The notes beneath the pieces are model-generated. The model saw nothing but the letters and a program-made list of their open reading frames with translations, made no database searches and was not told where the DNA came from. Position numbers and translations under genes: made by a program. From Thiomicrorhabdus sp. Kp2 (lineage in GTDB: Bacteria; Pseudomonadota; Gammaproteobacteria; Thiomicrospirales; Thiomicrospiraceae), in NCBI RefSeq assembly GCF_000478585.1, contig NZ_ARWI01000001.1, forward strand, positions 1,736,001-1,800,000: a DNA stretch of 64,000 nucleotides, written 5' to 3'. Of this stretch, positions 3,624 to 21,113 are shown one piece after another. Numbering within the stretch: position 1 is the first letter of the stretch; every line of letters begins with the position of its first letter.

Positions 3624-5594
3624 ATGATAAAGATGTCCAAACAATTCAAAGTAAAAAATTTAATACTACTAAGCGGTATTTTTGCAGTGTTAACGGGCTG
3701 TTCGGTTTATCCCGAAAAATTCTCTCAATCTCAAATTTCTGATAAAGCAAACGAAAACTTAAATATTTTAATAAAACAAAGCCCTCCTATTATTTCCAAA
3801 ATTGATTTGTCTGACGCAATTGCTCGAGCCATTAAACATAATAGAGAACATCGGCTCAAAGTGCTTGAGTCTGTATTGTCTCAAGGTCAGCTTGATATTA
3901 ATAATTTCGACATGTTACCTAGTTTGGTAGCAAAAGCAGGTTATTCTGAAAGAAATAATTATGCGGCTTCTGCAAGCACGACCTTTGTGGATGGTAAACC
4001 TCAACCGTTACCGAGTCCGCCATCCTATTCAGTCTCTCAAGACAAAGCTAGCAGTACCCAAAATATTGGTTTTACCTGGGATGTTTTAGATTTTGGACTC
4101 TCTTATATTCGTGCAAAACAACAGGCAGACAGATATTTAATTGCTAAAGAGCGTGAGCGTAAGGTTGTACATAACATTGTTCAAGATGTGCGTAAGTCAT
4201 ATTTTCGTGCAGTTTCTGCAGAAAAGCTTCTACAAAAGATAGAACCGCTTATGAAAGAAGCATCTTCGGCATTAGCAGATGCAGAGAAGATAGAACAAGT
4301 TAGAGCGCAGTCACCCATGGAAGCGCTCTCATATCAGCGAAACCTCCTAGAGGTTTTGAGAACTTTGCAATCTCTCCGTCAGGACCTATTAACCGCTAAG
4401 ACGGACTTGTCACGTTTAATGGGGGTGAAGCCAGGCCAAGCTTTTAAATTGGCAGGTTTTGACGAGTTTGCATACAAAGATATGAGTATTCCGTTTGATT
4501 TAGAGTTCATGGAAAAGGTGGCTATAGAGCAACGTCCAGAGTTGATTGAGGCGAACTATCGTGAGCGAATCACTCTTGAAGAAACAAAAGCCGCTATGGT
4601 TCGCTTATTGCCTGGAATCTCTTTGAACGCAGGTGCTTATTATGATGATAACGCCTATCTACTAAACAACGACTGGCAAGGAATTGGTGCTCAAGTTAGT
4701 TGGAATTTATTGAATGTTTTCAATGTGAACAATGTGGATAAAGTTAATGAACTTAATAAAGCCCTGGTTAAAGAGCAAGCTATTGCCAGCTCAATGGCCG
4801 TAATCTCACAGGTGCATATCTCAAATATTCGTTTTTATGAGTCTAAGAAAAATTTCAAAATTGCAGATCAATATTATGAGGTATCCAAACGCATAGGTGA
4901 ACAAGCGGTAATTTCTAACCAGATGCAAAACATGGGTGAATTAGGGCTGATTCGTGAAAAAATGAATGAATTACTTGCTGAGTTACGCCGTGATGTTGCA
5001 TATTCAGATATGCAAAATAGCTTTGGTGAGATATTTACCTCTATTGGCTTAGACTTAATTGATTCTGGCTATAAAAACAAAGATCTTAATATGCTTTCCA
5101 GCGAAATTGACAGCAAGATGCAAGCTTGGAAAACTGGAACCTTTACTTTTGAAGGTAGTTTAGCAGGAGAGATGACGGAATCTAAAGCAAGAGTTGCGCA
5201 AAAAAATAAGCCTGCTGTTAAAAAAGTCTCTATTGAAGAAACGGCTGGACAAAGTCAAACTGAACTTGCCGAGCCAGAAGATAAAATGGGTATAGCAGTA
5301 ATCGGTTTTGATTTAGATTCGATGCAAGTGACGCAAACCGAAGAGTTAGAGCAGTACCTTAAAAAAGCAGTTGAATTAGGGTACAAGAAGGTGATTATTA
5401 CGCCTTATGCTTCTAAGGATACGGACAAAGTTGATCTTCCAGAATCTTATAACCGCCGCCTTGTTATGCGTAGAGGAATGGCGGTTAAAAGATATATAGA
5501 ATCCGTTGGAGTGCCGCTTTTTGTTGATATAAATATCTTGGAGGGTGACGCGATTTACAAAGAAAGAATTGCCGAAATTAAAGCAGAAAAATAA
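3624..5594 (+). CDS. TolC-like outer membrane lipoprotein with C-terminal OmpA-like domain
   Basis: A 656-residue outer membrane channel component. The start is put at ATG 3624 (ATG 3633 is also possible) because of GGGAATAG upstream; an earlier in-frame TTG at 3612 is unlikely. The N-terminus is a lipoprotein signal ending in LTGC. Residues ~60-500 have the long helical repeats of the TolC/OEP family. After a charged linker, residues ~560-656 resemble an OmpA/MotB peptidoglycan-binding fold: a FDLDS strand, helix, TPYASKDTD turn, then a YNRRL..RR helix. Such a fusion is unusual; TolC proteins normally lack a wall-binding domain. The gene ends 2 nt before an HlyD-like adaptor and heads a five-gene cluster. 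The TolC call is firm, the OmpA-like call less so. Confidence 0.8.
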   Translation: MIKMSKQFKVKNLILLSGIFAVLTGCSVYPEKFSQSQISDKANENLNILIKQSPPIISKIDLSDAIARAIKHNREHRLKVLESVLSQGQLDINNFDMLPSLVAKAGYSERNNYAASASTTFVDGKPQPLPSPPSYSVSQDKASSTQNIGFTWDVLDFGLSYIRAKQQADRYLIAKERERKVVHNIVQDVRKSYFRAVSAEKLLQKIEPLMKEASSALADAEKIEQVRAQSPMEALSYQRNLLEVLRTLQSLRQDLLTAKTDLSRLMGVKPGQAFKLAGFDEFAYKDMSIPFDLEFMEKVAIEQRPELIEANYRERITLEETKAAMVRLLPGISLNAGAYYDDNAYLLNNDWQGIGAQVSWNLLNVFNVNNVDKVNELNKALVKEQAIASSMAVISQVHISNIRFYESKKNFKIADQYYEVSKRIGEQAVISNQMQNMGELGLIREKMNELLAELRRDVAYSDMQNSFGEIFTSIGLDLIDSGYKNKDLNMLSSEIDSKMQAWKTGTFTFEGSLAGEMTESKARVAQKNKPAVKKVSIEETAGQSQTELAEPEDKMGIAVIGFDLDSMQVTQTEELEQYLKKAVELGYKKVIITPYASKDTDKVDLPESYNRRLVMRRGMAVKRYIESVGVPLFVDINILEGDAIYKERIAEIKAEK

Positions 5595-5596
5595 CA

Positions 5597-6340
5597 ATGA
5601 TGCACATCAAAAACAAGGTTTCTGGTTTTCTATGTCTTGGTTTATGTTTGTTTCCTTGTGTGTTGTTTGCTCAATCTATGGAAGCAAGAGCTGTGGTAAA
5701 GGCGGTGGATCGAGCAGTGTTATCTGGCGAGTTAGTGTCAACGGTTGTTTCGGTACCAAAAAAAATGGGCGATTCATTTCGTAAAGGGCAAACCTTGGTC
5801 AGGCTCGATTGCCGAGTCTTTGAGGCTCAGCTCTCCAAAGTACAGTCTGAAGTTAAACTTGCAGACTTAAAACTCAAAAATGCAAAAAAATTAAATGAGT
5901 TGCGATCAATTGGTGCGCTCGACGTTGCATTGTCTGAAGCCGAGCTTGAAAAAGCGCGTGCCGAAATGCAGATTGCTAGAATTAACGCTCAACGATGTTA
6001 TATCAAGGCGCCTTATGATGGAAAAGTCGTGAAAGTTTTAGTCAATGAACAAGAGCGGGCTGGTCAAGAACCTCTTATTGAAGTTATTGGTACTAAGAGG
6101 CTCCAGGCTGAAATCATTATTCCAGGAAAGTGGGTGAAAAATATCAAGCTTAATCAAAAAGTGAATTTAAGCATTGATGAAACAGGTGAAATTGTTGAGG
6201 CAAAAGTAACTGGTTTAAATCCCACAATTGATGGCGTAAGCCAAACCTTAGAGGTGAGAGCTGAACTCTTACAGACAAAGGGTATTGTAGCTGGCATGAG
6301 TGCGACTGCGGTGTTTGATGCTCCAAAAAGCATGCCGTAA
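5597..6340 (+). CDS. Periplasmic adaptor (HlyD/RND membrane-fusion family), short form
   Basis: A 247-residue secreted adaptor with a signal peptide that probably ends at FAQS. The layout is a lipoyl-like half (GELVSTVVSVPKKMGDSFRKGQ, ~35-60), a short coiled-coil hairpin (~70-110), the second lipoyl half (CYIKAPYDGKVVKVLV, ~120-140) and a beta-barrel. It is shorter than typical HlyD or AcrA because the C-terminal membrane-proximal domain is reduced. Adaptors of this type connect an inner membrane transporter to a TolC channel. It follows the TolC-OmpA gene by 2 nt, and the giant surface protein gene comes next. It is one of three adaptor-like proteins in the locus; the other two are membrane-anchored fusions. 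Confidence 0.82.
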   Translation: MMHIKNKVSGFLCLGLCLFPCVLFAQSMEARAVVKAVDRAVLSGELVSTVVSVPKKMGDSFRKGQTLVRLDCRVFEAQLSKVQSEVKLADLKLKNAKKLNELRSIGALDVALSEAELEKARAEMQIARINAQRCYIKAPYDGKVVKVLVNEQERAGQEPLIEVIGTKRLQAEIIIPGKWVKNIKLNQKVNLSIDETGEIVEAKVTGLNPTIDGVSQTLEVRAELLQTKGIVAGMSATAVFDAPKSMP

Positions 6341-6454
6341 GTAGCCAAAATGTTAGTGCTAAAAAATAAAAGTCATTTCGGTAATAGATAAATCCATGAA
6401 AGTTATTAGTATTTATTTGACCGAAATAATTAAAGGTCTTTGAGGAGATATTCC

Positions 6455-9400
6455 ATGTCAGACATTCGTTCAAAAAATCAAGCAAGTTTTTACGCTAAAC
6501 GTAAACCTCTTATTGCAGCACTTGAAGCAAGGGTTTTGTTGGATGGTGCAGCTGTAGCCACAGCAGCAGATGCCATTGTTTCGGATGTTGATTTACAAGA
6601 CCAACAGGCCACAGAGCAAGCTGATACTTCTGCATCGGTTGCGCCTACACGACCAGAAGCTCCAGCCCCTACCCAATATAGAGCGGCTGATCCAGCGGCC
6701 AATAATGGCAGAAAAGAGGTGGTATTTATTGATACAGGGTTAGACAATTACCAAACCCTTATTGACAGCACTCATGCAGGGGTAGAAATTCAGTTGCTTG
6801 GAGGCGATTATGATGGCCTAACACAGCTGGAAATGTGGGCTGAAACAGCTCAAGATTATGATGCCATTCATATTTTATCTCACGGGGATGTTGGTGAGTT
6901 TACTCTCGGTGCGCAGACACTAAATCGCGACAATCTTAGTGATTATTCAAATTTACTTTCCCGCGTTGGCGGCACTTTAACTGAGAGCGGTGATGTCATG
7001 CTCTATGGTTGTTATGTTGGAGCCGATGGTAACGGGCGTGACTTTGTCGATTCGTTAGCGAATTTGACAGGTGCAGACATTGCCGCATCGGATGACCTCA
7101 CTGGTGCGAATACGCTTGGCGGAGATTGGGATTTAGAGTTGAATATAGGCGCTATTGAAACTCAGACCATAAATTACTCGGCTTATGCTGGACAGTTAGG
7201 TGCGCCTTCGGTGAGTAACCTTAGTCCGATTGTTATAGATGAAGGTGACCCTGCTATAACCGTTGATAGTGATATCTCCTTTTCAGGTTCAAGTGAGTTG
7301 GGTGGTGGTTATATCGAATTTCGCGTTGATAGCTCAAACAGTGGCGATCAGTTTACGTTAGATAGTGGCGGAAATATCACGGTTGTGGGTGATAATGTTT
7401 ACCACTCTGGTACATTTATTGGTGTGATTGACAGCGTTTATAATGGCCAAGATGGTAATAACTTGAGAGTTAATTTTGAGTCCAATTTTGCTAACCCTTC
7501 GTTTGAGGATAGTTTGAATAGTTGGACTATCGGTGAGAACCGAGTCATTCTTGGTACAACCGTAATCAATGGTCACACCACACCTGATGATTTAACTGAT
7601 CCACCAAATTCAGGCGATGATGCAGGTTCAGTGAACAGCATGACGTACTCTTCTCAGTGGTCATCAGACCAAAAGACAGATGGCCAATATTCTCTGCGTT
7701 TGTACAATTCAGGCCAAACAACAAATGGTTATGATGTTGTTCATGGCCCTTACGCTTTCTCAAGTACATTTGAAGCAAATGCGGGTGATACCCTTTATTT
7801 TGACTGGAGAGCGGCGGCTGGTGGAGATGCTTTTGATGCCTATGGATATATGATGAAATCGGATGGCTCTGAGTATGTAACGGTTTTAGATGCAACGGGT
7901 GCAAATGATTCTGGGCAGACTAACTGGGCTACACAGTCTGTGGTCGTGCCAACTTCTGGAGACTGGTACTTTGTTTTTGTAGCAGGAACTTATGACTTTA
8001 CAGGCGGTAGAGCGGTTGGTGGCTCTCTGTACATTGATAATTTTCAGGTTTTTGGTGACACGGTAAACGATACGGTACTGAATGACCTGGCAAGACAGGT
8101 TGAGTACCAAAATACGGGTGTGGACTCTCTTGAAACACGCAATTTAACGGTAAGTGTGGTTGATAAGTCTGGCAATACTGGCTCTCAAACAACGTCTTTG
8201 ACGATTAATCAATTGAATAACGCTCCCTCTTTTAGTGGGGATGGCTCTCTGGCTGCGGTAGCGGAAGATAGCTTGAATCCGTCTGGTGCAACGATTAGTT
8301 CGCTTTTTGATTCTCTGCTGAGTGATCCCGATACATCCTATACACCCGCTGATAGTCTGTCTGGAATTATCATTACGGCGGATTCTTCTTCTGTCGCTGA
8401 AGGTGAATGGCAATATTCGACAGATGGTAGTAACTGGTATTCTGTTGGTAGCGTTTCGACGACAGATGGCTTGTTGCTATCGAGTTCATCCAGTCTGCGT
8501 TTTGTTCCAGCCGCTGAATATAGCGGTACCCCTGGTAGCTTGAGTGTTCATGCCGTAGATAGTTCTGATAATACCATCACATTTACCAGCGGGACGACGC
8601 GCGAAACTTATGATACCGTCAATGGTGACACAGGAGCTGATTCTGCTGTATCAGCAAGTTCGGCGAATTTAAACACTTCTGTGACTGCGGTAGATGATGC
8701 GCCTGTATTAACCATAGGATCGCTTAATGTTGTAAACGATAATTCAGCAACGGTAATTGCCCCTAATTTAACCATTACCGACATTGATTCAACCACAATA
8801 TCTGGTGCCCTTGTACAGCTGAATAACCTTGTTTCGGGTGATCAACTCGGCTTTATCAATCAAAATGGGATTTCGGGTTCCTATAATGCAAGTACAGGTG
8901 TTTTAACGTTAACGGGTACAGCAACGGTTTCTCAGTATCAAGAGGCTTTAAGAAGTGTAACTTTAGCCGCTTCAGCTACGGATGGTACAGACCGCTCAAT
9001 CAGTTTTACTATTGGTTCGGCGATTCCATTTGAAGATAATGGACACTTTTATGAAGCCGTTGCTTTGCCTAATGGCCAACAGACCTGGGCAGCAGCTAAA
9101 GTTTATGCTGAAAGTTTAACTTTGTATGGCATGCAAGGTTATTTGGCAACAATAACTTCACAAGAAGAAAATGATTTTATTTTATCTAAACTCCCAGAAG
9201 ATGGCTGGGCGGGTGGTTCAGACTCGGAAACAGAGGGAACTTGGAAGTGGGTAACTGGGCCTGAAGCTGGAACGATATTTTCAATAGGAAATGATAACCC
9301 AGTAACTCAAACTTACTCCAATTGGAATAGTGGGGAGCCAAATGACTCAGGAGGTAATGAAGACGCTCTGCAATTTTATGCAAGTGGTGCAGTTCCTGGG

Positions 9401-12400
9401 CAGTGGAACGACTTGCCCTCTGCAAGTAGCAATTTAACGTATGCGATTGTGGAATACGGCGGCATGCCAGGTGAGTCATCTGTGCAAATTTCTCAAAATG
9501 CCACCATGACGGTTAATGATAAACCTGTGGTTACGGTTTCTGATACGCCGAGCTATACGGAAAATGCAAGTGCTGTGGTCTTAGCTCCTGGGCTAAGTAT
9601 TTCAGATGATGGTGTAACATTATCAACGGCAACCATCTCAATTACAGGTAATTTTGACACAAGTCATGACGAGTTGCTGTTTGTGAACGACAGTATTTCA
9701 ATGGGAAATATTCAAGGGAGCTATGACTCTGTTAATGGTCTGTTAACACTTTCATCAGCAGGTGATACAGCAACGGTCGCAGAATGGCAATCTGCTTTAA
9801 GAAGCGTAACTTTCCAATCGAGTGATGAAGCCTTAACCGATGCGAGTAAAACAATCTCTTGGCAGGTAAATGATGGTTATTTAGATAGCTCAGTAGTGAC
9901 CGCGACATTGACTACTGTTGCCGTTAACGATGCTCCAGTTGTTTCAGCTCCAAGTGCACTCGCCATTGTTGATGGCAAAGGTGCCGATATTTATGGTGAT
10001 ATAACAGGAACTATTTCGGCCAGTGATGTTGATAGTGGCAGTTTAAATTATCAGATTGATGACAATGGCAGTGGTGTTCAGAGCATTCAAGGTCTTTATG
10101 GCACTTTAACCATTGATGCGTCAACGGGTGACTATACCTACACCCCTGATAATAGCGCTATTAATGCTCTAGATGCGGATACATCTGAAAGCTTTACTAT
10201 CAATGTTTCGGACGGGGATTTGTCTGATAGCGTGCAATTAAATATTAATGTTACGGCTACACCTGAAGTTGCTGCTCAATATGTTGAGCAAGCAAACCCT
10301 ATCTTGCCATTAACCGATACGGTCATTGATACAGCTGAAGATTATAGTGGCGGCTATATTGACTTTGAAATCGACTCAGTAACAACCACAGAGATTCTTG
10401 GGCTTGAAGATGATGGTTCTGCCTCAACGGTAGATGGTGAGGTCAGCGTGGTTGGTAATACCGTTTACTTAGGTGACGGTAGTAGTGCAAAAGTGATTGG
10501 CCAAATTGATGGTACATTCAATGGTCAAAATGGCCAAAAGTTAAGAATTAACTTTAGCGTGGACTTTACGAATGGTGATTTCAACCTCTCAACAGCAGGC
10601 CTGCTAAGTTCAAAAACAGGTGACATCATCAATATTGATGGATGGACAATCGTCAATGACCGAGTCATATTTGGTCAGGATACGATTGACGGTTTACCAA
10701 CTCCAGTAGATACAGATTGGCCTAGAACAACCAATGGGCTTGATGACACGGGAACTCTAAGTTCTTCAACATATAAAACTTATGTACACCAAGATGGAAA
10801 TGGAGATAACTCCATTCAGATGTACTCCACTATGTGGTCGAACACGGGATTTGAAGTGATTCGTGGCCCTTATATCTATTCTGATGCTTCTGTTGCGCTA
10901 GAGGCTGGAGATTCAGTTCAGTTTGATTGGAAAGCTCAAGGTGGCGGAGATGCATATGATGTTTTTGGTTATATCATTGATGTTAATGACCCAATAAACT
11001 ATCAAATTATCTTAAATGAGACAGCAAGTTCAGCGAGTGTCACAACAAATTGGGCAACAGAATCCATAGCGGTGAGTCAGTCTGGACAATACCAGTTTGT
11101 ATTTGTCTCTGGTACCTGGGATGCGACAGGCGGTACGCTTTTAGGTGCGCAGCTCTTTATTGATGACGTTAAAGTCACGCAGGCCAACGCAGCTGGTGGT
11201 TTGGAATCTTCTGTTTTAGAAGCTTTGTCCCATAAAGTGACATACCAAGATAGTGCTGATTTGAGTGCGTTGAATAGCACGGTTAATAAAAATATTATCA
11301 TTACTACAGCTTCAGGCGATGACACTCCTATAACGCATACGAGCTCTAAAGGTTTGGTGATTACTGAGGTAAATGATTCAGTGTCGTTAGACCCTGTAGA
11401 TACCATTTATCTTACCGATACCGATGGACAAGACAGTTTCAACACCATAACGAATCAGCTTAATGCAACAGACCCAGATAGTAATACCACTTTTGAGTAC
11501 AGTATTGATAACGGAACCGATATGGGTTCTTCTTTCTCAAAGGCGGGCACTTTTGGAACTCTAGAAATTAATAAAAGCACAGGTGTGTATCAATATACGC
11601 CTGACGAAAATGCGATTAATGCATTAACCAGTTCTACAACAGAAACGTTTACATTTACAGTAACGGATGGAAACGGTTCATACGATTCAAAAACACTCAC
11701 AATTGATTTGCAAGCGGTAAATGACGCTCCTATTTTAGGCGGCGGTGCAAGTCAGGTTACATTCTTTGAAAATGGCAGCCCTGTGATTGTCGATGGATCT
11801 ATTACTCTAGAAGACCCAGAAGGATTGTCTTATCAAGGCGGAAGTCTTGTCTTTAAAACGACCCTTAATGGAGAGCTTGCGGATCAGTTTAGCATTATTG
11901 AAACTAACGGTATCACCTTGAATGGTAGTAATGTCTATTCATCTGGAGCCCTGATAGGAAGCATTGATAGTCAGCAAAATGGCCAAGCGGGACAACCGCT
12001 GCGCATTAACTTGAATCAAAATGCTTACTCACTTCAGGTTGAGGCTTTGGCTCGTTCGATAGGCTTTAGTAATCCCACAGATGATTTGAGTGAGCAGTCT
12101 CGTACAGTGGTTATTGAGGTGAATGACGGTGGTAATAATGGACAGACCACAGCGAGATTCAGTTCAAAAGAAGCGACGGTAGAGATTGAAACGCTGAACG
12201 ATTTACCTGAAATTAGTATTAGTTCAGGTAGCTATATTGTCGAGAAAGTTGTGCAAACGAACCCGGATGGTACGGTTGTTTTACCTGGCATTGAAATGAG
12301 TGATCTTGATCATAATGAGCTTACCGTGGAGTTATCTACAAGCTTATATGGTGAGTTAACTGTGGATACAAGTGTTCCAAACGGTTTGACTGGTGCAAAT

Positions 12401-14812
12401 ATTACAAATAACGGAACAGGCAATGTAACCATTACAGGCACGATTGAGCAGATTAATAATACTTTATTGGCTAATGGAGGGCTGATTTATCAAGCTGGCA
12501 GTGGCAATGACATTGTCACTCCTGGGCCTGATATCTTAACCATTACGGCAACAGATGGAGCTGGAGGCGAGTTCCAGTATAGTCGCCAAGTGACGGTTCT
12601 ACCTGCTATTCCAAATGCAAACAGTGATAATGTAACCGTTTCAGAAGATGGTGTTGTCTTGGTTGATATGAGCGGTTTAGTGGCTGATATTAACGACAAC
12701 TCAGGAACTTATACTATCGGTACGGGCTCACCAGACATAACGGATCAAAGCGGTAATGTGACGCAAGCTGGAACTATTACACCGTTTGACAACAGTAAGA
12801 TTATTACTGCAGATATTGATGATGATGGCAATCCAGAAGAGATTGGTTATCAGCTAGAGCACGGTAAGCTGATTTTAAATAATGACCAAGTATTAGGTAC
12901 TGACTTTGCAAGCTTCAGTTATATTCCAGATGGAGATTTCAATGGCATTGAAACTTTTGTTTATCAATATAATTCTGGGGATGGCAAATCAAGTCATATC
13001 GCTCAAATACTGCTTGTTACTACCCCTGTTAACGATGCACCAGAAGTGCAGGCAAACAATTCGGCCTCAATTGCCGAAGATTCTGCACTCGTATTCAGTA
13101 GTGGTAATGGTAATCAAATTACCTTAAATGATGTTGACAGTGCAAATGGAGAGATGACTCTTACACTGAGTGTTAATCATGGTGCTGTAACTTTAGGTTC
13201 AAATAGCAACTTGGAGCTACTTGAAGGCGCAGATCAGTCTGCCCATATTAAGGTAAAAGGAACACTTACTGAGCTTCAAAATGCAATCAATGGTCTGAGT
13301 TATACAGCAAACCAAGACTTTAACGGTAGTGATCAATTGACTGTTCTTGTAAATGACCTTGGAAACTCTGGAGATGGAGTTGCGCAAACAGCAAGTCAAA
13401 CAATCAATTTGACGATTAGTGAGGTTAATGACACACCAACCGTTACCGTTCAGCAAGGGTCTGGTTTTGGTACGGTTGATGATAGTTCTGCTGTCGATTT
13501 ATCGGATTCTGGTGCAGTCACCTTTAATGATGTTGACGAAGGGGACACCCTTGATATTAGCTTCACCAAGGACATAAACTGGAGTCATGGGACTTTAGAC
13601 CCAAGCATCAAACAGACTCTATTAGATGGTTTCCAAGTTGTTGGAGAGGACTTGTCTCCTGGCAGCATAAACTGGAATTATGACGTTTCTGGCGTTGATT
13701 TGGATTTCTTATCTGAAGGTGAAACCATTGCCTTAACTTATACGGTAACGGTAACAGACTCAGAGAATGCAACGGCAAGTGATACGGTAATCCTTACAAT
13801 CAATGGCACAAATGATGCACCTATCATTATCAATGATAATTACGATTCAGTGGTATTAGGTTTTTCTGAACCTTATTCTCTTGATGTCACAGGCTGGTTT
13901 GGCGATGTTGATGTCAATGACCAACATACCTATGCAGTTAATGGCTTGCCAGACGGTGTTGTGTACGACCAAAACACTGGAAAGCTTTCTGGACAACCGT
14001 TAGTTCCAGGTATATTTTCCATAGAAGTTACCGCTATCGATAAAGAAGGAGCCACAGTTTCAAGAACTTTTGAGATGACGGTTACCGCACCTCCCGAACC
14101 AGCTGCTCCAACAACGCCACCAAGTTCTCCTACCTCTCCAGTGAATTTAGGTGATGATACTGCGCCTATTGTTGAGGTTGGTGTAGGTGACTTACCAGAT
14201 GGTTTAGTTGATTCAACCGCTGGACAAGAAGGTTTTGTTAGTGAACCTCTAGTTGTGAGTGGGGAAGGTTTTGAAGGTTCAGGTTTAAATGTTCCAGACC
14301 CTGTTACCAACACAACCCCACAGGGTGATCAAACAACTAAGATAGCCGTTAACGTTGGTACGGATGGTAACGTGAGTTTTGATCGCGAACGTTCAGAAAC
14401 CATTAAAAATACAGGTTTAGCCGTTGCTGAAGTCATTAAATCGGGAGACACTGTCGAGGTGTCAATTTTTGATACCGAAACCGCTCAATCTTATACCGCA
14501 ACTTTGAGTGATGGTACAGAGTTGCCAGCTTGGGTAAGTGTGGATAAGACAACGGGTTCAATTAAAGCATCACCACCAGAAGGTGTAAAAACACTTTCAA
14601 TCAGAATTAACGCGGTTGGAACATCTGGAGAAGTTAGGGTTCTTGAAATTGAACTGAGTTTTGAAGAAGAAGAGGAAGAGCTTGAACAGTTGGCTGACCC
14701 AGCATTAGTGCAAGCGGCATTATCTCCTATAGGCTTGAGTGAGCAATTATCAAATGAGATGAGTATTCAAAATAGTTATGGAGATAAATTAACGGCGTTA
14801 TTGGCAAGTTAA
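6455..14812 (+). CDS. Giant surface/secreted protein: DUF4347, cadherin-like repeats, C-type lectin
   Basis: A 2785-residue protein. The start is ATG 6455, 8 nt after GAGGAG; an in-frame TTG at 6440 lies upstream of that site. Near residue 25 is LIAALEARVLLDGAA, a variant of the LEPR-XLL N-terminal motif of very large bacterial surface proteins. DUF4347 follows (~87-235), then an Ig/cadherin-like array with many VNDAPV-type linkers. Two similar modules at ~350-540 and ~1365-1575 (each with GWTI/SWTI..RVI.G and GGDA.D..GY) look like jelly-roll or carbohydrate-binding domains. A C-type lectin-like domain (~857-1006: WNSGEPND, QWNDLP) lies between them. A putative-Ig cadherin-like domain (~2465-2545), a Pro-rich linker and an acidic C-terminal domain end the protein. 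There is no Sec signal and no RTX calcium repeats. Probably the exported substrate of the flanking genes; adhesion is inferred. Confidence 0.85.
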   Translation: MSDIRSKNQASFYAKRKPLIAALEARVLLDGAAVATAADAIVSDVDLQDQQATEQADTSASVAPTRPEAPAPTQYRAADPAANNGRKEVVFIDTGLDNYQTLIDSTHAGVEIQLLGGDYDGLTQLEMWAETAQDYDAIHILSHGDVGEFTLGAQTLNRDNLSDYSNLLSRVGGTLTESGDVMLYGCYVGADGNGRDFVDSLANLTGADIAASDDLTGANTLGGDWDLELNIGAIETQTINYSAYAGQLGAPSVSNLSPIVIDEGDPAITVDSDISFSGSSELGGGYIEFRVDSSNSGDQFTLDSGGNITVVGDNVYHSGTFIGVIDSVYNGQDGNNLRVNFESNFANPSFEDSLNSWTIGENRVILGTTVINGHTTPDDLTDPPNSGDDAGSVNSMTYSSQWSSDQKTDGQYSLRLYNSGQTTNGYDVVHGPYAFSSTFEANAGDTLYFDWRAAAGGDAFDAYGYMMKSDGSEYVTVLDATGANDSGQTNWATQSVVVPTSGDWYFVFVAGTYDFTGGRAVGGSLYIDNFQVFGDTVNDTVLNDLARQVEYQNTGVDSLETRNLTVSVVDKSGNTGSQTTSLTINQLNNAPSFSGDGSLAAVAEDSLNPSGATISSLFDSLLSDPDTSYTPADSLSGIIITADSSSVAEGEWQYSTDGSNWYSVGSVSTTDGLLLSSSSSLRFVPAAEYSGTPGSLSVHAVDSSDNTITFTSGTTRETYDTVNGDTGADSAVSASSANLNTSVTAVDDAPVLTIGSLNVVNDNSATVIAPNLTITDIDSTTISGALVQLNNLVSGDQLGFINQNGISGSYNASTGVLTLTGTATVSQYQEALRSVTLAASATDGTDRSISFTIGSAIPFEDNGHFYEAVALPNGQQTWAAAKVYAESLTLYGMQGYLATITSQEENDFILSKLPEDGWAGGSDSETEGTWKWVTGPEAGTIFSIGNDNPVTQTYSNWNSGEPNDSGGNEDALQFYASGAVPGQWNDLPSASSNLTYAIVEYGGMPGESSVQISQNATMTVNDKPVVTVSDTPSYTENASAVVLAPGLSISDDGVTLSTATISITGNFDTSHDELLFVNDSISMGNIQGSYDSVNGLLTLSSAGDTATVAEWQSALRSVTFQSSDEALTDASKTISWQVNDGYLDSSVVTATLTTVAVNDAPVVSAPSALAIVDGKGADIYGDITGTISASDVDSGSLNYQIDDNGSGVQSIQGLYGTLTIDASTGDYTYTPDNSAINALDADTSESFTINVSDGDLSDSVQLNINVTATPEVAAQYVEQANPILPLTDTVIDTAEDYSGGYIDFEIDSVTTTEILGLEDDGSASTVDGEVSVVGNTVYLGDGSSAKVIGQIDGTFNGQNGQKLRINFSVDFTNGDFNLSTAGLLSSKTGDIINIDGWTIVNDRVIFGQDTIDGLPTPVDTDWPRTTNGLDDTGTLSSSTYKTYVHQDGNGDNSIQMYSTMWSNTGFEVIRGPYIYSDASVALEAGDSVQFDWKAQGGGDAYDVFGYIIDVNDPINYQIILNETASSASVTTNWATESIAVSQSGQYQFVFVSGTWDATGGTLLGAQLFIDDVKVTQANAAGGLESSVLEALSHKVTYQDSADLSALNSTVNKNIIITTASGDDTPITHTSSKGLVITEVNDSVSLDPVDTIYLTDTDGQDSFNTITNQLNATDPDSNTTFEYSIDNGTDMGSSFSKAGTFGTLEINKSTGVYQYTPDENAINALTSSTTETFTFTVTDGNGSYDSKTLTIDLQAVNDAPILGGGASQVTFFENGSPVIVDGSITLEDPEGLSYQGGSLVFKTTLNGELADQFSIIETNGITLNGSNVYSSGALIGSIDSQQNGQAGQPLRINLNQNAYSLQVEALARSIGFSNPTDDLSEQSRTVVIEVNDGGNNGQTTARFSSKEATVEIETLNDLPEISISSGSYIVEKVVQTNPDGTVVLPGIEMSDLDHNELTVELSTSLYGELTVDTSVPNGLTGANITNNGTGNVTITGTIEQINNTLLANGGLIYQAGSGNDIVTPGPDILTITATDGAGGEFQYSRQVTVLPAIPNANSDNVTVSEDGVVLVDMSGLVADINDNSGTYTIGTGSPDITDQSGNVTQAGTITPFDNSKIITADIDDDGNPEEIGYQLEHGKLILNNDQVLGTDFASFSYIPDGDFNGIETFVYQYNSGDGKSSHIAQILLVTTPVNDAPEVQANNSASIAEDSALVFSSGNGNQITLNDVDSANGEMTLTLSVNHGAVTLGSNSNLELLEGADQSAHIKVKGTLTELQNAINGLSYTANQDFNGSDQLTVLVNDLGNSGDGVAQTASQTINLTISEVNDTPTVTVQQGSGFGTVDDSSAVDLSDSGAVTFNDVDEGDTLDISFTKDINWSHGTLDPSIKQTLLDGFQVVGEDLSPGSINWNYDVSGVDLDFLSEGETIALTYTVTVTDSENATASDTVILTINGTNDAPIIINDNYDSVVLGFSEPYSLDVTGWFGDVDVNDQHTYAVNGLPDGVVYDQNTGKLSGQPLVPGIFSIEVTAIDKEGATVSRTFEMTVTAPPEPAAPTTPPSSPTSPVNLGDDTAPIVEVGVGDLPDGLVDSTAGQEGFVSEPLVVSGEGFEGSGLNVPDPVTNTTPQGDQTTKIAVNVGTDGNVSFDRERSETIKNTGLAVAEVIKSGDTVEVSIFDTETAQSYTATLSDGTELPAWVSVDKTTGSIKASPPEGVKTLSIRINAVGTSGEVRVLEIELSFEEEEEELEQLADPALVQAALSPIGLSEQLSNEMSIQNSYGDKLTALLAS

Positions 14813-16167
14813 TGAGCAATATCGTTGCCTCATTTTCAGCTCTTATTCAAATAGAGCATCATTTAAGAAAAAGCGACTCTCTGGCGGAGTTTGGTTTTAT
14901 AATAACAAATGAACTCCGTCAGTTAATCGACTATGATTTGGCGGTGTTGCTTGAAGGTAATGGTGAGGCTCGATTCAAAGTCGTTACAATCAGTGATCAT
15001 GCTTCCGTTGATTCTACCGCACCCTTTGTCAATTGGTTAGAGAACCAGCTCTCTAAGAAAACAGAGTGCTGTACTTCACAAGAGCCTATTGTTTTAAATT
15101 CAGCATTATGGTCACAAGAAGATGTTAAAGATCTTCAAGACTTTTTTCTTGGTCATTTACTCTGGATTCCCCTCGTTTTACCGTCAGGTTCGGGAGCGCT
15201 TCAAGGGGGAGTGCTACTGTCCAGAAGCACTCCATTTTCAAATAAAGACACCGAGCTACTTTCACATATCTCTAAAACCGCTGCTCATGCGATGAACTGT
15301 CTTTCTAGAAAAGGCTGTGCAGGCCGTTGGCTCTCAACGGGGATCAAAAAGCGTAAGGTTTGGTTTTATGCTTTTTTGTTTTTAGTAGTGCTCAGTTTAT
15401 TGCCTGTTCAGTTAAGTGTCATTGCTCCTGCAGAAGTGGTTTCAAAATCTCCTATTCAAATGACATCTCAGCTACAAGGTGCAATTAGAAACATAGAAGT
15501 GATTCCTGGGCAAAGTGTTGATAAAGGGGATTTGCTGGTCGTTTTTGATGATACCCAGCAGTCAAGTCGTTATGCCATAGCCAAAAAAGCTTGGTTGAAA
15601 GCCAAGGCAGAGTTAACAACTGCTCAAAGAGGAGGATTTCTTAATAAAAATGACAAATCCAAGCTAGCAGAGTTGCAGGCCAATGTCGATTTAAAAGCAA
15701 CCGAAATGGCTTATGCCAAAGAGCTTTTACAAAAAACACAGCTTACCGCGCCAGATGCAGGCATTGTGATTATGAATGATCCCAAGGAGTGGGAAGGAAG
15801 GCCTGTTCAAATTGGTGAAAAAATTCTTTCAATTGCTAACCCTAAACGTTTTGAGTTAAAGGTGCAGTTACCAGTTAAGGATTTTATTGTTTTAAATCAT
15901 CAAACGCCTGTAAGGCTCTTTTTAGACAGTGATCCTCTTAACCCTTTAGATGTGAATATTCTTTACATGACGTATATGCCAGAAGTAACACCTCAAGGCA
16001 TTCTCGCTTATAAGTTGGTTGCCCGTTTTCAGAATGATGAGACAGCGTTAAAATCTGTACGTATCGGTATGCGAGGTACGGCAAAACTTTATGGTGAATC
16101 AGTTACGTTATTTTATTATCTATTCCGTCGGCCTATTACTTCGGTAAGGCAGTGGCTGGGTTGGTAG
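14812..16167 (+). CDS. GAF-domain / HlyD-type inner membrane adaptor fusion
   Basis: A 451-residue protein whose ATG overlaps the giant protein's stop by one base, so the two are translationally coupled. Residues ~1-170 look like a cytoplasmic GAF sensor-type domain. One membrane segment follows at ~184-204 (FYAFLFLVVLSLLPV), then an HlyD-like periplasmic part with the two lipoyl halves (AIRNIEVIPGQSVDKGDLLV ~217-236; TAPDAGIVIM ~310), a coiled coil and a barrel (to ~430). A GAF domain on an export adaptor suggests ligand or redox control of secretion, but no ligand can be read from the sequence. The next gene starts 4 nt downstream. The HlyD call is firm; the GAF call rests on overall pattern and position. 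Confidence 0.78.
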   Translation: MSNIVASFSALIQIEHHLRKSDSLAEFGFIITNELRQLIDYDLAVLLEGNGEARFKVVTISDHASVDSTAPFVNWLENQLSKKTECCTSQEPIVLNSALWSQEDVKDLQDFFLGHLLWIPLVLPSGSGALQGGVLLSRSTPFSNKDTELLSHISKTAAHAMNCLSRKGCAGRWLSTGIKKRKVWFYAFLFLVVLSLLPVQLSVIAPAEVVSKSPIQMTSQLQGAIRNIEVIPGQSVDKGDLLVVFDDTQQSSRYAIAKKAWLKAKAELTTAQRGGFLNKNDKSKLAELQANVDLKATEMAYAKELLQKTQLTAPDAGIVIMNDPKEWEGRPVQIGEKILSIANPKRFELKVQLPVKDFIVLNHQTPVRLFLDSDPLNPLDVNILYMTYMPEVTPQGILAYKLVARFQNDETALKSVRIGMRGTAKLYGESVTLFYYLFRRPITSVRQWLGW

Positions 16168-16171
16168 TAGC

Positions 16172-18301
16172 ATGTTTTCACAAGCGCAACAAGAAAAGTC
16201 TTTTTTACCCACCATTCGTCAAAACTTAAAGTTATTACAAGGAACCTCAGATGAAAGCGGTTCACCACGCTGGTTATTGTTTGATCCTATGGTCAACAAA
16301 TATTACACCCTTAGTCAAACCGCAGTTGCATTAATGTCCGCTTGGCGTAACGGTCAAGAAACAACCACATTTCTTGTAGAGTTACAAAACCAAGGTACAG
16401 AGGTTGATGAGTCAGAGCTTAACGCATTTTGTGAGTTTTTGACTGTGAATGGGCTTACCGTTCATCGTAATAGTGAAGATGTTGCTCGATTAAGCCAACG
16501 TGAAAAAGCATCAAAACACAGTCTATTCAAGTGGTTAATTCACAACTACCTTTTTATACGCTTATCATTATTTAGGCCTGACGGCTTTTTAGAAAAAACT
16601 TATCCCTACGTAAAATGGCTTTTTAAGCCACAAATCAAATGGATTATCTTGATGTTTGGTGGACTTGGAATCTTATTAACCCTGCGTCAATGGGATGAGT
16701 TCACAAATGCCTTTTCTTATTTTTGGTCATGGGAAGGTCTGGCTTTTTACATTATTACGCTGATTATCGTAAAAGTATTTCATGAGCTGGGCCATGCTTA
16801 CGTTGCTAAAAAATATCGTTGTCGTGTCAGTTCAATGGGAATTGCATTTATGGTTTTATTTCCCTTTCTATATACCGATACAACCGACGCTTGGAAACTA
16901 CAATCACGTTACCAAAAACTAGATATTGTTACGGCTGGGGTTAGGGTTGAACTATATATCGCCATGCTGGCTACTTTCTTTTGGAGCTTTTTACCTGACG
17001 GTATGTTAAAAAGTGCAGCTTTTGTATTGGCAACAACAACCTGGGTAAGTACCTTAATTATTAACGCCAGCCCTTTCTTACGTTTTGATGGCTATTACGC
17101 ATTTTCAGACTGGCTGGGTGTTGAAAACCTACAGTCGCGCTCATTTGCTTTAGGTCGTTGGGCTTTACGTAAAACATTATTTGGAATAGACCTACCTGCA
17201 CCAGAACCCTTGCCGAAAAAGTTACAAAGAACTCTTATTTTCTATGCGTGGTTTACCTGGATATATCGGTTTTTTCTTTTTCTCGGTATTGCGTTATTAG
17301 TCTATTTCTTTGCTTTCAAAGTATTAGGCATTATCTTATTTATAATAGAAATTGTTTGGTTCATTTTGCTTCCAATACAAAAAGAACTTATTGAGTGGTG
17401 GAAGATGAGAAAAGAGATAACGCTAAATCGTAAATCAATAACTTCCGCAAGCATGATTATTGGCTTAATTGTCTTACTGGTTATTCCATGGCAAAGACAG
17501 ATCACTCTAGATGCCGTCTATAAGTCTAGTAGCTATATTCGATTGTATAGCCCTGAACCCGCCACACTAGTTGCCATCTATGTAGAGTCTAGGAAAACGG
17601 TGCAAGAGGGTGAAAAGCTCGCTCAGTTGACCTCACCAGAACTTGATTTTCGTATAAAAGTGACAAAACTCAATATTGCCAAAATACAGTCAAAATTAGA
17701 CCGTATCGCTACTTTTTCCGAAGATAGATACCAAGTTGACGTGTTGCAAGAAGCACTCCAACAAGAACAAGAAGCGCTCGTGGGGCTTAAAAAAAGACAG
17801 AAGCTCTTACAAATAACATCACCCATAGATGGTGTTGTCACAGACCTTAAAACAATGACAATAGGGCAAAGTGTAGGTGTTAATCAACACCTTATCGGTG
17901 TGGTAGCACCAACTGACATTGAGTTGGTTGCCTTTTTACCTGAAAATCAAATAAGTGCCGTTTCTGCTGGTGCCAAAGGTACTTTTATTGCCAATCATGG
18001 CGAAGAGCTACAAGCAGATTTAATGGTTACTTCAATAGAAAAAATGGGAATACAGCAATTGGAATATGAAATTTTAAGCTCCGTTTACGGCGGAAGTTTA
18101 GGAGTCAGAGAAAACCAAGAAGGTAAAATGGTGCCTGAAACCCCCTATTTTTTAATCAAACTCCAAACCACAAATCTTCCAGAAAAACAGTGGATGCAAC
18201 AGACCGCAGGCAAAGTTATTGTGGAAGCAGACCCAAAAAGTGGTTTAAGCATTCTATGGGACAAAATTATGGCCGTGTTAATTAGGGAGTCAGGGTTTTA
18301 A
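16172..18301 (+). CDS. PqqD-like / M50 site-2-protease-like / HlyD membrane fusion protein
   Basis: A 709-residue polytopic protein. Residues ~15-105 resemble the PqqD winged-helix fold that binds peptide substrates (WLLFDPMVNKYYTLS). A membrane domain has FHELGHAYVAKKY with HELGH at 204-208 and NASPFLRFDGYY near 297, the two zinc-binding motifs of M50 (site-2 protease) metalloproteases. After more membrane segments (~365-440), residues ~450-690 form an HlyD-like adaptor (LYSPEPATLVAIYV, coiled coil, ITSPIDGVVTDL). Related PqqD/M50/HlyD proteins occur in peptide export loci. It may be the inner membrane engine or a processing protease for the giant protein. It closes the cluster; the AT-rich DNA after the stop holds a palindrome copy at 18355. 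Confidence 0.82.
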   Translation: MFSQAQQEKSFLPTIRQNLKLLQGTSDESGSPRWLLFDPMVNKYYTLSQTAVALMSAWRNGQETTTFLVELQNQGTEVDESELNAFCEFLTVNGLTVHRNSEDVARLSQREKASKHSLFKWLIHNYLFIRLSLFRPDGFLEKTYPYVKWLFKPQIKWIILMFGGLGILLTLRQWDEFTNAFSYFWSWEGLAFYIITLIIVKVFHELGHAYVAKKYRCRVSSMGIAFMVLFPFLYTDTTDAWKLQSRYQKLDIVTAGVRVELYIAMLATFFWSFLPDGMLKSAAFVLATTTWVSTLIINASPFLRFDGYYAFSDWLGVENLQSRSFALGRWALRKTLFGIDLPAPEPLPKKLQRTLIFYAWFTWIYRFFLFLGIALLVYFFAFKVLGIILFIIEIVWFILLPIQKELIEWWKMRKEITLNRKSITSASMIIGLIVLLVIPWQRQITLDAVYKSSSYIRLYSPEPATLVAIYVESRKTVQEGEKLAQLTSPELDFRIKVTKLNIAKIQSKLDRIATFSEDRYQVDVLQEALQQEQEALVGLKKRQKLLQITSPIDGVVTDLKTMTIGQSVGVNQHLIGVVAPTDIELVAFLPENQISAVSAGAKGTFIANHGEELQADLMVTSIEKMGIQQLEYEILSSVYGGSLGVRENQEGKMVPETPYFLIKLQTTNLPEKQWMQQTAGKVIVEADPKSGLSILWDKIMAVLIRESGF

Positions 18302-18443: not shown

Positions 18444-18527
<84 letters not shown>

Positions 18528-18569
18528 GAATAAGTCATCTAAACTAAAGCTTAAACAACTTATAAAATA

Positions 18570-18645
18570 TGGTGGCCACACCTGGAATCGAACCAGGGAC
18601 ACAGGGATTTTCAATCCCTTGCTCTACCGACTGAGCTATGTGGCC
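18570..18645 (-). tRNA. tRNA-Phe, anticodon GAA (island integration site)
   Basis: A 76 nt gene read leftward, starting GGCCACATAG and ending with an encoded CCA. Anticodon loop TGAAAAT gives GAA. The gene is intact. Its 5' portion plus upstream DNA (18620-18664) is repeated perfectly at 53852-53896, which marks it as the attachment site of the 35 kb island. The crossover lies between the anticodon loop and the 5' end, so the 5' half of this copy and its promoter come from the island side. Confidence 0.95.
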
Positions 18646-18664
18646 AAAATAGAATGGGCGTATT
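18620..18664. repeat. Left attachment repeat (attL)
   Basis: 45 bp identical to 53852-53896. It contains the D arm and acceptor 5' strand of tRNA-Phe plus 19 bp of upstream DNA. Beyond 18664 the two sites diverge but remain clearly related through the promoter, which suggests the island copy came from a related species' tRNA locus. Confidence 0.9.
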
Positions 18665-18690
18665 ATATGGACGGGCTTCGCGGCTGTCAA
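18662..18690 (-). promoter_or_regulatory. Consensus sigma-70 promoter of tRNA-Phe, supplied by the island
   Basis: Read leftward: TTGACA (18690-18685), 17 bp spacer, TATAAT (18667-18662), both perfect consensus, with the tRNA 5' end 16 bp further on. It lies on the island side of the crossover, so it replaced the native promoter, which now sits at 53894-53922. Confidence 0.85.
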
Positions 18691-18788
18691 ACTTTATTTT
18701 GAAAAAATCTTAAATAAGACCCAGGGACAAATTAGAGACAAATTAGAGACAAAACATTTCTGATTGCTTGGACATTGACTAAAAGACT

Positions 18789-18998
18789 CTATTTGTCTTC
18801 ATTTGTAAAATTTAGTATGTCATTTGGCGTGCAATCTAAAAACTTACATAATTTGTCTAGTGTTTCCAAATCAATTCTTTTCGCTTGATTGTTGTAAAGC
18901 TTATCAATGGAACTCCGGTTAACTTCAATTTCTCTTGCCACATCAATCACTTTTAATCGTTTACTTCCCATCAGTGTAGATAGTTTGGAATCAATCAT
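18789..18998 (-). CDS. XRE-family helix-turn-helix regulator
   Basis: A 69-residue Cro/CI-type DNA-binding protein. The five-helix fold is readable: VIDVAREIEVNRSSIDKLYN forms the helix-turn-helix, then LETLDKLCKFLDCTPNDIL, the usual C-terminal part of short YozG-like regulators. AGGAGGG precedes the ATG. It is divergent from an excisionase-like gene with a 168 bp gap holding two inverted repeats, the classical layout of an element's repressor. It probably controls excision genes; whether it also senses metals is unknown. It is the only transcription regulator recognised in the island apart from the excisionase-like protein. Confidence 0.85.
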   Translation of the reverse strand: MIDSKLSTLMGSKRLKVIDVAREIEVNRSSIDKLYNNQAKRIDLETLDKLCKFLDCTPNDILNFTNEDK

Positions 18999-19166
18999 TA
19001 TCTACCCTCCTTTATAAGCTTTAAATGAATGTAGAATATATTTTGTTTACATTAAATAAACAGAAATGCTTGTAAATATATTTTAAGTGTGTAAAATTTA
19101 TTCTAAATAGATTTTATGGGAATAAAATCTGTTTTATATACTTAATATTAATAAGAGGATTTTAGC
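18999..19166. promoter_or_regulatory. Divergent control region with two inverted repeats
   Basis: An AT-rich gap between the XRE gene and the excisionase-like gene. Two inverted repeats are visible: TGTTTA (19044-19049) with TAAACA (19057-19062), and AGATTTTAT (19109-19117) with ATAAAATCT (19122-19130). These are plausible operators for the XRE protein; binding is inferred. Confidence 0.5.
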
Positions 19167-19409
19167 ATGGATTTTACATACTTAACCACAGAAGAATTAT
19201 CAGAACGTATCAAGTACAACCCTAGAACAATTCGAAACGAACTAAAGGATAGCGTTTTACTTGAAGGACGCCATTACATCAGGCCTTTTGGACAGCGTAA
19301 AATTTTGTTTATTTGGGAGCATATTGAAACGGATATGTATAAGGCTTCAGAGGCTTCTGATTTTAGTATTCCAATGGCAAATGGTGGTTCTTGTTTAGGG
19401 CTGCATTAG
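19167..19409 (+). CDS. Excisionase/AlpA-like small DNA-binding protein
   Basis: An 80-residue protein with AGAGGA upstream of its ATG. The N-terminal half (YLTTEELSERIKYNPRTIRN, then RHYIRPFGQRKILFIWEHIE) has the winged-helix pattern of AlpA/Xis proteins: a helix choosing rows of a DNA site, then a basic wing. The last ~25 residues look unstructured. It lies 49 bp before the integrase and is divergent from the XRE regulator, the usual place for an excision-direction factor. The family assignment is by pattern only. Confidence 0.6.
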   Translation: MDFTYLTTEELSERIKYNPRTIRNELKDSVLLEGRHYIRPFGQRKILFIWEHIETDMYKASEASDFSIPMANGGSCLGLH

Positions 19410-19458
19410 TTAAGTTATAAAGTTATTCAAGATAGTTTTTTATATTAGGAGGCTTTAT

Positions 19459-20769
19459 ATGGCCACGATTAGAGTCAAAAAGAGTACTGGAAACCTATAT
19501 TTTGATTTTCAGTTTTTAAAAATTAGATGTAGAGAATACACATCTTTACCTGACACAAAAACCAACCGCAAAAGGCTGGAAGCCATATTGGCACGTATTG
19601 AAGCCGAGATTACTTTGGGAACGTTTGAGTACGGTAAGTATTTTCCAAACAGTTCAATGGTAAACAAGATTGACGAGATTCAAGCAAAGCAACAACCAGG
19701 TTATACCAAAACACCTTTGTTTAAAGCGTTTGCAATCGAGTGGTATTCAGAGATGGAACCAACATGGCGAACTTCAACAGCCGAAACTTATCAGCGTTAT
19801 ATCGATAAGCGACTTATTCCCCATTTTGGAGAAATGGAAGTCAGCCAAATCACCAAAGCTCACATTTTAAAGTACCGTTCTAACGTCGCCAAACAATCGG
19901 ACGGTAAATTAAAGCCAAAGACGATAAACAAGTTTATCAAGTGTCTCAATATGATTATGAATGAAGCAGCTGACCGATACAATTTTACGCCACCTCATTT
20001 AAATATCAAGCCTCTTAAAGAAGAGAAGGTGCATATCGAACCGCTCTCTATTCAAGAAGTGAACTTGATATTGGTCAACGTCCGATCGGATTGGCGTGAT
20101 TATTTGCTCGTGAGGTTTTTTACAGGCATGCGTACAGGAGAGATTGACGGTCTTAAATGGGACAACGTTGATTTTGAACGACGTGAGATTCTCGTGCGAG
20201 AAACCTTCTCAATGGGGCGTTGGGAATACACCAAAAACGAGGGTTCTCAACGAGAAATTGAGATGTCGACCTTGGTTTATAACACCTTATTGGAGCGCTA
20301 TAAAAATCGTGATGTATCCTGTGAGATGGTGTTTCACGCCAATAACGGCTCACCGGTGCATACGCCTAACTTTTTAAGACGCGTCTGGACGCCACTACTG
20401 GCTTATCTCAAGATTAAGTACCGTAAGCCTTATCAAACCCGTCACACAGCCGCCACGCTCTGGTTGGCGGCAGGAGAAAACCCCAACTGGATTGCCAAAC
20501 AGATGGGCCACAGTACCACCACTATGCTGTTCAGCGTCTATGCACGTTATGTTCCCAACCTCACTCGTCAAGACGGTTCGGCAATGGAGCGATTATTGGC
20601 TTCCAATATTGACGGTTTTCATGAGCCAGTAAACGATGCTGAAAAACAAGCTGATGAAGAATTAAGCGTATCGGTTAATCAAGCACAACAAAGCGAAGCC
20701 GAAGAAGTGGCTTTTTGGGATCAGTTCTTAACACCCAATCAAACTTCTTCAATGGGAGGACGTTACTAA
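19459..20769 (+). CDS. int: Tyrosine-type site-specific integrase
   Basis: A 436-residue phage-type integrase. Residues 1-65 look like the Arm-DNA-binding domain (DUF3596) found in many island integrases, then a SAM-like core-binding domain (~85-180) and the catalytic domain (~195-385). Active-site boxes: TGMRTGEIDGL (Arg near 224), YQTRHTAAT, KQMGHSTTT and the nucleophile in SVYARY. A perfect AGGAGG lies before the ATG. The gene is about 800 bp from attL, the usual position for the enzyme that inserted the island into tRNA-Phe. Its stop overlaps the start of the next gene by one base, so downstream small genes are co-translated. Confidence 0.92.
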   Translation: MATIRVKKSTGNLYFDFQFLKIRCREYTSLPDTKTNRKRLEAILARIEAEITLGTFEYGKYFPNSSMVNKIDEIQAKQQPGYTKTPLFKAFAIEWYSEMEPTWRTSTAETYQRYIDKRLIPHFGEMEVSQITKAHILKYRSNVAKQSDGKLKPKTINKFIKCLNMIMNEAADRYNFTPPHLNIKPLKEEKVHIEPLSIQEVNLILVNVRSDWRDYLLVRFFTGMRTGEIDGLKWDNVDFERREILVRETFSMGRWEYTKNEGSQREIEMSTLVYNTLLERYKNRDVSCEMVFHANNGSPVHTPNFLRRVWTPLLAYLKIKYRKPYQTRHTAATLWLAAGENPNWIAKQMGHSTTTMLFSVYARYVPNLTRQDGSAMERLLASNIDGFHEPVNDAEKQADEELSVSVNQAQQSEAEEVAFWDQFLTPNQTSSMGGRY

Positions 20770-21113
20770 TGAATTTACATCAAACTACACCACAAGCAAC
20801 ATCAAATCAACATATCCCGCCTTTTTTAAAAAGGCAACATCCATCGATGACTTCAACCATCGAAGTACCAATTGCTATTGAAGACCCAAGGGTCCTAAAT
20901 CGCCTGGTAAATAATCTTATGTACCTGTTTAACATTCAAGAGGGTGATTACCTAACTTTCGTATTAGGACAAGGTCAATGCGCTAATAACAGGGATGCTA
21001 TTAAGTATTGGGTGTTAGCGACCCTAGCAGTAACGCCAGTAAGCCAAGACGATGTACTTGAACACCTTGTCAGTCAGCTTAAAGAAAAGATTATGATGGA
21101 GGTCTACCAATGA
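20769..21113 (+). CDS. Unknown small island protein, coupled to integrase
   Basis: 114 residues; not recognised. The start is placed at ATG 20769, which overlaps the integrase stop TAA by one base and follows GGAGG. An N-terminal polar, Pro/Gln-rich tail (~1-30) precedes a compact region with a predicted amphipathic helix (RVLNRLVNNLMYLFNI). No signal peptide or membrane segment. It overlaps the HD-domain gene by 4 nt (ATGA), so integrase, this gene and the HD gene form one translational unit, and a role in element maintenance or transfer is likely but unproven. Confidence 0.7.
   Translation: MNLHQTTPQATSNQHIPPFLKRQHPSMTSTIEVPIAIEDPRVLNRLVNNLMYLFNIQEGDYLTFVLGQGQCANNRDAIKYWVLATLAVTPVSQDDVLEHLVSQLKEKIMMEVYQ

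Follow-up and report, generated by a model that had tools for sequence, protein, structure and literature searches.

Type I secretion systems such as LapBCE and HlyBD-TolC bring together an adaptor, a TolC-type duct and a giant repeat-rich protein, and all three are encoded in the stretch of DNA studied here, 64,000 nucleotides of Thiomicrorhabdus sp. Kp2 (contig NZ_ARWI01000001.1, positions 1,736,001 to 1,800,000), to which we refer as the window. The five-gene locus of the window differs from type I systems in that a Pfam search, which recovers both the adaptor and the TolC-type duct, finds no ATP-binding cassette (ABC) exporter among its genes. In addition, its giant protein carries an N-terminal LEPR-type motif and a DUF4347 domain and contains no RTX nonapeptide (no match to the GGxGxD pattern), a repeat that is common, not universal, in type I substrates.

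A nearer relative is the secondary SecA_DEAD locus described in 2015 by Kamneva, Poudel and Ward (PMC4452313). It comprises genes for GAF-HlyD, M50-HlyD, HlyD and a second SecA, sometimes also for an OEP, again without an ABC exporter, and the authors suggested that its M50 protein could be the pore. An earlier note on the window had known of no named secretion type with this composition, a statement that this similar ABC-less locus corrects. The M50 proteins of the window and of loci of the 2015 type, hereafter sister loci, are homologous (22-30% identity), and the window represents a branch of the 2015 locus with neither a SecA nor an ABC gene: SecA was found in none of 80 loci of the window branch with a profile built from three sister-locus SecA fragments, and a second full match to SecA is absent from 62 of the 64 genomes of this type. 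A term search of the main text of the 2015 paper returned none of the words DUF4347, LEPR, adhesin or giant.

Other described families are less close. The entries for LEPR-XLL (NF012209) and DUF4347 (PF14252) name no secretion route; the window protein scores above the cut-off of the latter and below that of the former. The daptide protease model NF041824 has an M50 core in common with the window, and its 379 positions leave the window's adaptor part outside. Tce1 (PA0256; PDB 9qpe) is a type VI secretion effector loaded on Hcp3 and is itself no giant surface protein. In the open-access literature we found no account of such a gene set exporting LEPR or DUF4347 giants.

Our analysis indicates that the locus probably encodes a dedicated apparatus for the export of giant LEPR-DUF4347 proteins across the cell envelope and for their display on the surface. 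What is new is that the 2015 locus can be linked to a family of cargo proteins and to a candidate leader motif; the mechanism beyond this we infer, including that export takes place, in which direction it runs, the targets of each protease and the source of energy. The features of the locus are listed below.

3624..5594, + strand: TolC-family outer-membrane lipoprotein (OEP PF02321, 110.9 bits; lipobox LTGC by eye)
5597..6340, + strand: small periplasmic adaptor of the HlyD/RND-mfp type (HlyD_3 PF13437, 53 bits; TIGR01730, 89.4 bits, cut-off 94.9; N-terminus signal-like by eye)
6455..14812, + strand: giant protein of 2785 amino acids, counted from ATG (a longer open reading frame begins at TTG 6440), with a LEPR-type motif, DUF4347, VCBS/cadherin/Ig repeats and a C-type lectin domain
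6521..6547, + strand: LEPR-type motif LEARVLLDG of the giant (NF012209, 15.1 bits, cut-off 17)
6719..7171, + strand: DUF4347 of the giant (PF14252, 169.2 bits, cut-off 24.6)
6881-6883 and 7010-7012, + strand: invariant His143 and Cys186 of DUF4347, residues numbered from 6455
14735..14749, + strand: C-terminal motif LSEQL of the giant, 25 residues before its end
14812..16167, + strand: GAF-HlyD, with a GAF-like domain (18.7 bits, below the cut-off of 22.4), one hydrophobic segment (by eye) and an adaptor domain (HlyD_3, 41 bits)
16172..18301, + strand: M50-HlyD (Peptidase_M50, 40 bits, cut-off 27.2; HlyD_3, 39 bits)
16229-16447, + strand: putative RRE/PqqD-like N-terminus of M50-HlyD
16781-16795, + strand: HELGH in the intramembrane metalloprotease core of M50-HlyD
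17492-18241, + strand: adaptor domain of M50-HlyD

The open reading frames and Pfam matches agree with the five genes, coordinates and spacings (2, 114, -1 and 4 nt, from the open reading frame coordinates) given in the earlier note. Two of its labels hold in part. The TolC half of "TolC-OmpA" stands, and the OmpA-like end is weak (16 bits with NCBIfam OmpABordt, no Pfam match at 0.01); in "PqqD/M50/HlyD" the last two domains are confirmed, and the match to PqqD is weak (PF05402, 13.6 bits against a cut-off of 23.4).

Conservation of the gene set and its association with giant proteins

The locus is real, widespread and conserved. Named genome contigs were scanned with a 12-row alignment, and the best 80 of at least 378 relatives were kept. 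GAF-HlyD directly adjoins M50-HlyD in 72 of these 80 loci, and a small HlyD and a TolC gene lie within 10 kb in 65 and 57 of them, respectively; M50-HlyD is the anchor of every locus found. ABC genes stand at most 1.5 kb from M50 in 2/80 loci and anywhere in the stretch in 22/80. An open reading frame of at least 900 amino acids or a DUF4347 domain is present in 53 of the 58 loci with at least 8 kb of upstream sequence, a count in which shadow frames are possible in GC-rich contigs. The place of the giant differs between loci: it may precede TolC, stand between HlyD and GAF-HlyD, follow M50 or be divergent. Since the arrangement recurs in distant genomes, it is not due to chance.

The set is also carried by plasmids, with 51 of 72,556 plasmid records matching the query P0005. 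Those that we examined, from Kosakonia, Azospirillum and E. coli, have the order giant, TolC, HlyD, GAF-HlyD, M50-HlyD, and each of their giants has a LEPR-type motif and DUF4347. The E. coli plasmid NZ_CP022155.1, IncF-typed, holds the full set with a giant of ~4457 amino acids and the motif LESRQLFDG. Among 5426 complete genomes of E. coli, 24 have the M50 gene.

Closer to the window, a protein search of its genome and 57 relatives gave four M50-HlyD homologues, all distant (23-27% identity). In the loci of three of them (L011, L012, L013) GAF-HlyD, M50-HlyD and a SecA_DEAD protein, confirmed as SecA, follow in a row; these are loci of the 2015 type. No window-type match was found among the 31 other genomes of the same genus, one of which, G016, carries the SecA type. 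The scan of 369 genomes of the class, in which three candidates per genome were scored, yielded 57 M50-HlyD matches in two bands, ~32-42% identity for the window type and 22-30% for the sister type, with short fragments set apart. A third arrangement (L171, L172, L174, L181) consists of GAF-HlyD, M50, a longer HlyD and a DUF4347 giant, and its locus contains no SecA; G116 and G344 have a second SecA elsewhere in the genome, G240 and G384 have none.

In the class, DUF4347 occurs in 36/57 M50-HlyD-positive and 12/312 negative genomes (Fisher p 6e-25). Supported in the reading of the earlier note is a conserved set around M50-HlyD, lacking an ABC exporter in the locus and statistically tied to DUF4347/LEPR giants. 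The positives divide into 10 of 18 window-type genomes and 26 of 39 others, the latter including four window-like or short fragments (G091, G188, G220, G250). DUF4347 is found in 54 of the 64 genomes that carry a window-type M50-HlyD (15 from the numbered genome set and 49 of the 80 loci), and the open frames of LEPR/DUF4347 giants in these carriers reach 10,477 amino acids. The His and Cys of DUF4347 are invariant in 39/39 aligned sequences, and its predicted structure gave caspase-like fold matches; the domain models as a caspase-like fold in which these two residues are a candidate dyad, as in cysteine peptidases of clan CD.

M50-HlyD fuses an inner-membrane core to an adaptor domain. The catalytic positions of the core, HExxH and a distal Asn/Asp, are invariant in 56/56 rows, and residues 98-345 match the daptide HExxH protease model NF041824 at 140 bits, where that model's cut-off is 300. 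The N-terminus is predicted to fold as three strands followed by three helices, the order of PqqD-type domains, and PF05402 matches 6 of 35 homologous N-termini at E<=1 (best 0.0054). Against PDB sequences this domain gave nothing convincing (best 0.019, a glycoside hydrolase; TfuB1 0.83), and PqqD is absent from the listed rows of whole-model fold searches, which barely probe the N-terminal part.

The LEPR motif and the C-terminal end of the giants

The N-terminal motif of the giants follows the pattern LE-x-R...D/S, in which L, E, R and D are invariant in 39 aligned N-termini. These are 39 of 43 references; the four left out (L064, L072, L158, L161) also show LEPR. Two more were removed by hand, L070 for broken reading frames and L134 for an N-terminus outside the stretch (in L211 it reads LEPRFLFDV), and 5'-open copies, scores <150 and repeats were dropped; an LE-x-R motif was required, and none was rejected for want of it. 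The LEPR-XLL model matches 31 of the 39 at E<=1.

The motif follows the presence of the machine. When the N-termini of the DUF4347 proteins in the class set are read, a LEPR-type motif is found in 34 of 35 readable M50-positive genomes, compared with 2 of 11 M50-negative ones (Fisher p 5e-7). For this count G103 (a weak match of 21 bits, under the cut-off) was placed among the 11 negatives, and G158, which has the motif and, where its contig ends, a fragment of M50, outside them as window type with D; G091, whose M50 is broken (31-41% identity), was taken as window type. Where the pattern failed, N-termini were read by eye (G240, G292, G298, G299, G325, G394, G400), and the unreadable G227 was not counted. 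Among the M50-negative genomes, five (G070, G163, G200, G221, G339) have a DUF4347 protein with a Sec-like signal, that of G200 with a C-terminus resembling an autotransporter barrel, and in three (G252, G283, G399) the proteins begin almost at DUF4347. The loci L202, L203, L204, L206 and L209, from genomes with no M50-HlyD detected, show DUF4347 behind such Sec-like signals, and the L202 protein has an autotransporter-like C-terminus.

The residue after the hydrophobic triplet matches the subtype of the machine: 11 window-type genomes have D at this place, whereas 24 of the sister type have S or A (p 2e-9). This tracking fits a leader that is read by the machine, and is no proof of one.

At the other end, a hydrophobic-x-x-Q-hydrophobic pattern, chosen after looking at the sequences, occurs within the last 70 residues of 40 of 44 giants (shuffle mean 6.5, maximum 14) and in 71 of 1064 other sequence windows; four open reading frames with at least five Cys and one repeated end had been dropped to leave 44. 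In a later set of 15 further window-type ends from other genomes, read by eye, 8 match strictly and 11 with G allowed. The misses are G313, G357, G410 and L071. One member, L116, is almost identical to L119, which was already in the first set; L130 was excluded because its end seems to be out of frame, and five stretches did not reach the end. One of four sister-type ends (G141) matches. The giants of the sister-type genomes G088, G225 and G355 and of G357 have a different end, a hydrophobic stretch that is accompanied by a PAWxxxDPLPIL-like segment and is perhaps a membrane anchor; in L173, L246, L248 and L249 such a segment comes after the hydrophobic stretch and is followed by an acidic tail.

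Proposed mechanism and alternative explanations

We propose that the N-terminal LEPR segment would act as a leader, which the RRE/PqqD-like domain of M50-HlyD may dock at the inner membrane. M50-HlyD and GAF-HlyD would form the inner-membrane base, with the small HlyD and the TolC lipoprotein completing the duct, and the M50 site and the caspase-like DUF4347 would trim or release the leader by proteolysis, possibly in cis. The energy would most likely come from the housekeeping Sec machinery, because a second SecA is found in most genomes of the sister type; the alternative is proton motive force. That these parts amount to a separate secretion pathway, with a LEPR leader, an RRE-like domain on an intramembrane protease/adaptor, a TolC duct, no ABC or other dedicated ATPase, and a caspase-like cargo domain that finishes release, is a tentative proposal, to which we give somewhat less than an even chance.

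Several observations weigh against dedicated export by this set. Ten of the 64 carriers show no DUF4347, two of which (G258, G451) have a LEPR giant beside the set. G112 has M50 and DUF4347 with a hydrophobic N-terminus instead of LEPR, G357 holds two further DUF4347 copies without LEPR, and the drafts G279 and G320 have LEPR-type motifs with no M50 detected. The PqqD identity of the M50-HlyD N-terminus is weak, as given above. Because whole operons are inherited together, the D/S split may go back to one event of co-divergence, in which case the p-value overstates independence. The window's own genome encodes an LssB-type exporter (G000:C1:1212395, 947 bits) that could act in trans. Finally, a Vibrio giant is reported to combine LEPR-XLL with C-terminal RTX domains (PMC10868602), and this lowered our confidence both in dedicated export and in a separate pathway.

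The most probable alternative is a Sec-dependent route in two steps, in which housekeeping SecA/SecYEG moves the giant through the inner membrane, LEPR is an odd signal that M50-HlyD does no more than trim, and the adaptors and TolC take the giant across the outer membrane. It overlaps with our preferred reading, of which it is a narrower form, and we hold it to be a real possibility that stops a little short of even. Of 36 sister-type genomes, 24 have a second SecA (by eye; including G095 with 96 bits and leaving out G091, G188, G220 and G250), no other 19-mer of the window giant is as hydrophobic as the LEPR segment (mean 1.48), and the locus has no other ATPase. However, the five machine-less genomes with Sec-like signals instead of LEPR make the motif look like an alternative to such signals, and the window branch mostly lacks a second full SecA: only two of the 64 carriers have one (345 and 289 bits). 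In seven others the additional match spans ~67 positions at 25-32 bits, formally above the cut-off, one carrier (G269) shows no SecA at all, and the window's genome has a single SecA over the cut-off, its second match reaching 19 bits.

The earlier note had M50-HlyD itself replace the ABC exporter. As a conducting channel driven by proton motive force, it would agree with the fusion of membrane core and adaptor, with its role as anchor of every locus, and with the pore idea put forward in the discussion of the 2015 locus (PMC4452313); we consider such a channel unlikely. The part of gate or sensor that the note gave to GAF-HlyD is likewise conjectural. Overall, the reading of the earlier note is partly supported.

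A type I ABC exporter encoded elsewhere could instead power export in trans, the locus being accessory. Besides the window's own exporter and the Vibrio giant, this idea could draw on LssB-type exporters in 23 of 64 carriers and PrtD-type ones in 11 of 29 tested, over the cut-off (14 ABC candidates per genome scored for LssB, up to 33 for PrtD). Yet 17 of 29 carriers lack both types over the cut-off (the search did not use TIGR01846, the model for the HlyB family, and the 17 include drafts or single cells, among them two genomes of 1.3-1.4 Mb), and 12 of these 17 have a DUF4347 protein. A classical type I ABC exporter is thus not generally needed, and LssB- or PrtD-type exporters in trans are rejected as a general need. 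The window's exporter, moreover, precedes adaptor-like and TolC-like genes of its own (profile scores 61 and 38 bits), and the window's giant lacks the RTX nonapeptide. We regard an exporter in trans as improbable. The region G000:C1:1206455-1217900 (L267, L268) is a separate classical type I system, with a nearby protein LapD-like by eye. From the SecA and ABC counts together, no single dedicated ATPase found here explains all carriers.

Least probable is a small-molecule or peptide efflux and maturation set with the giant as an unrelated neighbour, for although the M50 part comes closest, among NCBIfam models, to a protease for ribosomally synthesized and post-translationally modified peptides (daptides) and the adaptors resemble drug-efflux ones, the giants are linked to the set across distant genomes in several gene orders and the LEPR motif tracks the machine.

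Setting of the locus and significance

The window's genome is 2.73 Mb in one contig. On the 5' side of the locus lie fructokinase-like and amylosucrase-like genes (by eye); an upstream 651-aa open reading frame, considered as a second SecA, was rejected, being by eye a GH13 amylosucrase-like enzyme. On the 3' side, within 18444-22057, tRNA-Leu and tRNA-Phe genes are followed by a tyrosine recombinase frame at 19459 (by eye), and an HD-domain, relaxase-like frame stands at 21110 (by eye). Based on the tRNA genes and these two frames, an integrated element seems to adjoin the locus.

The same gene set on E. coli plasmids means that the system can be studied in a well-known species. If our reading is true, the locus that was noted in 2015 without a named cargo would gain a family of cargo proteins, a motif for their sorting and a testable mechanism, and the reading would explain how the LEPR/DUF4347 giants leave the cell.

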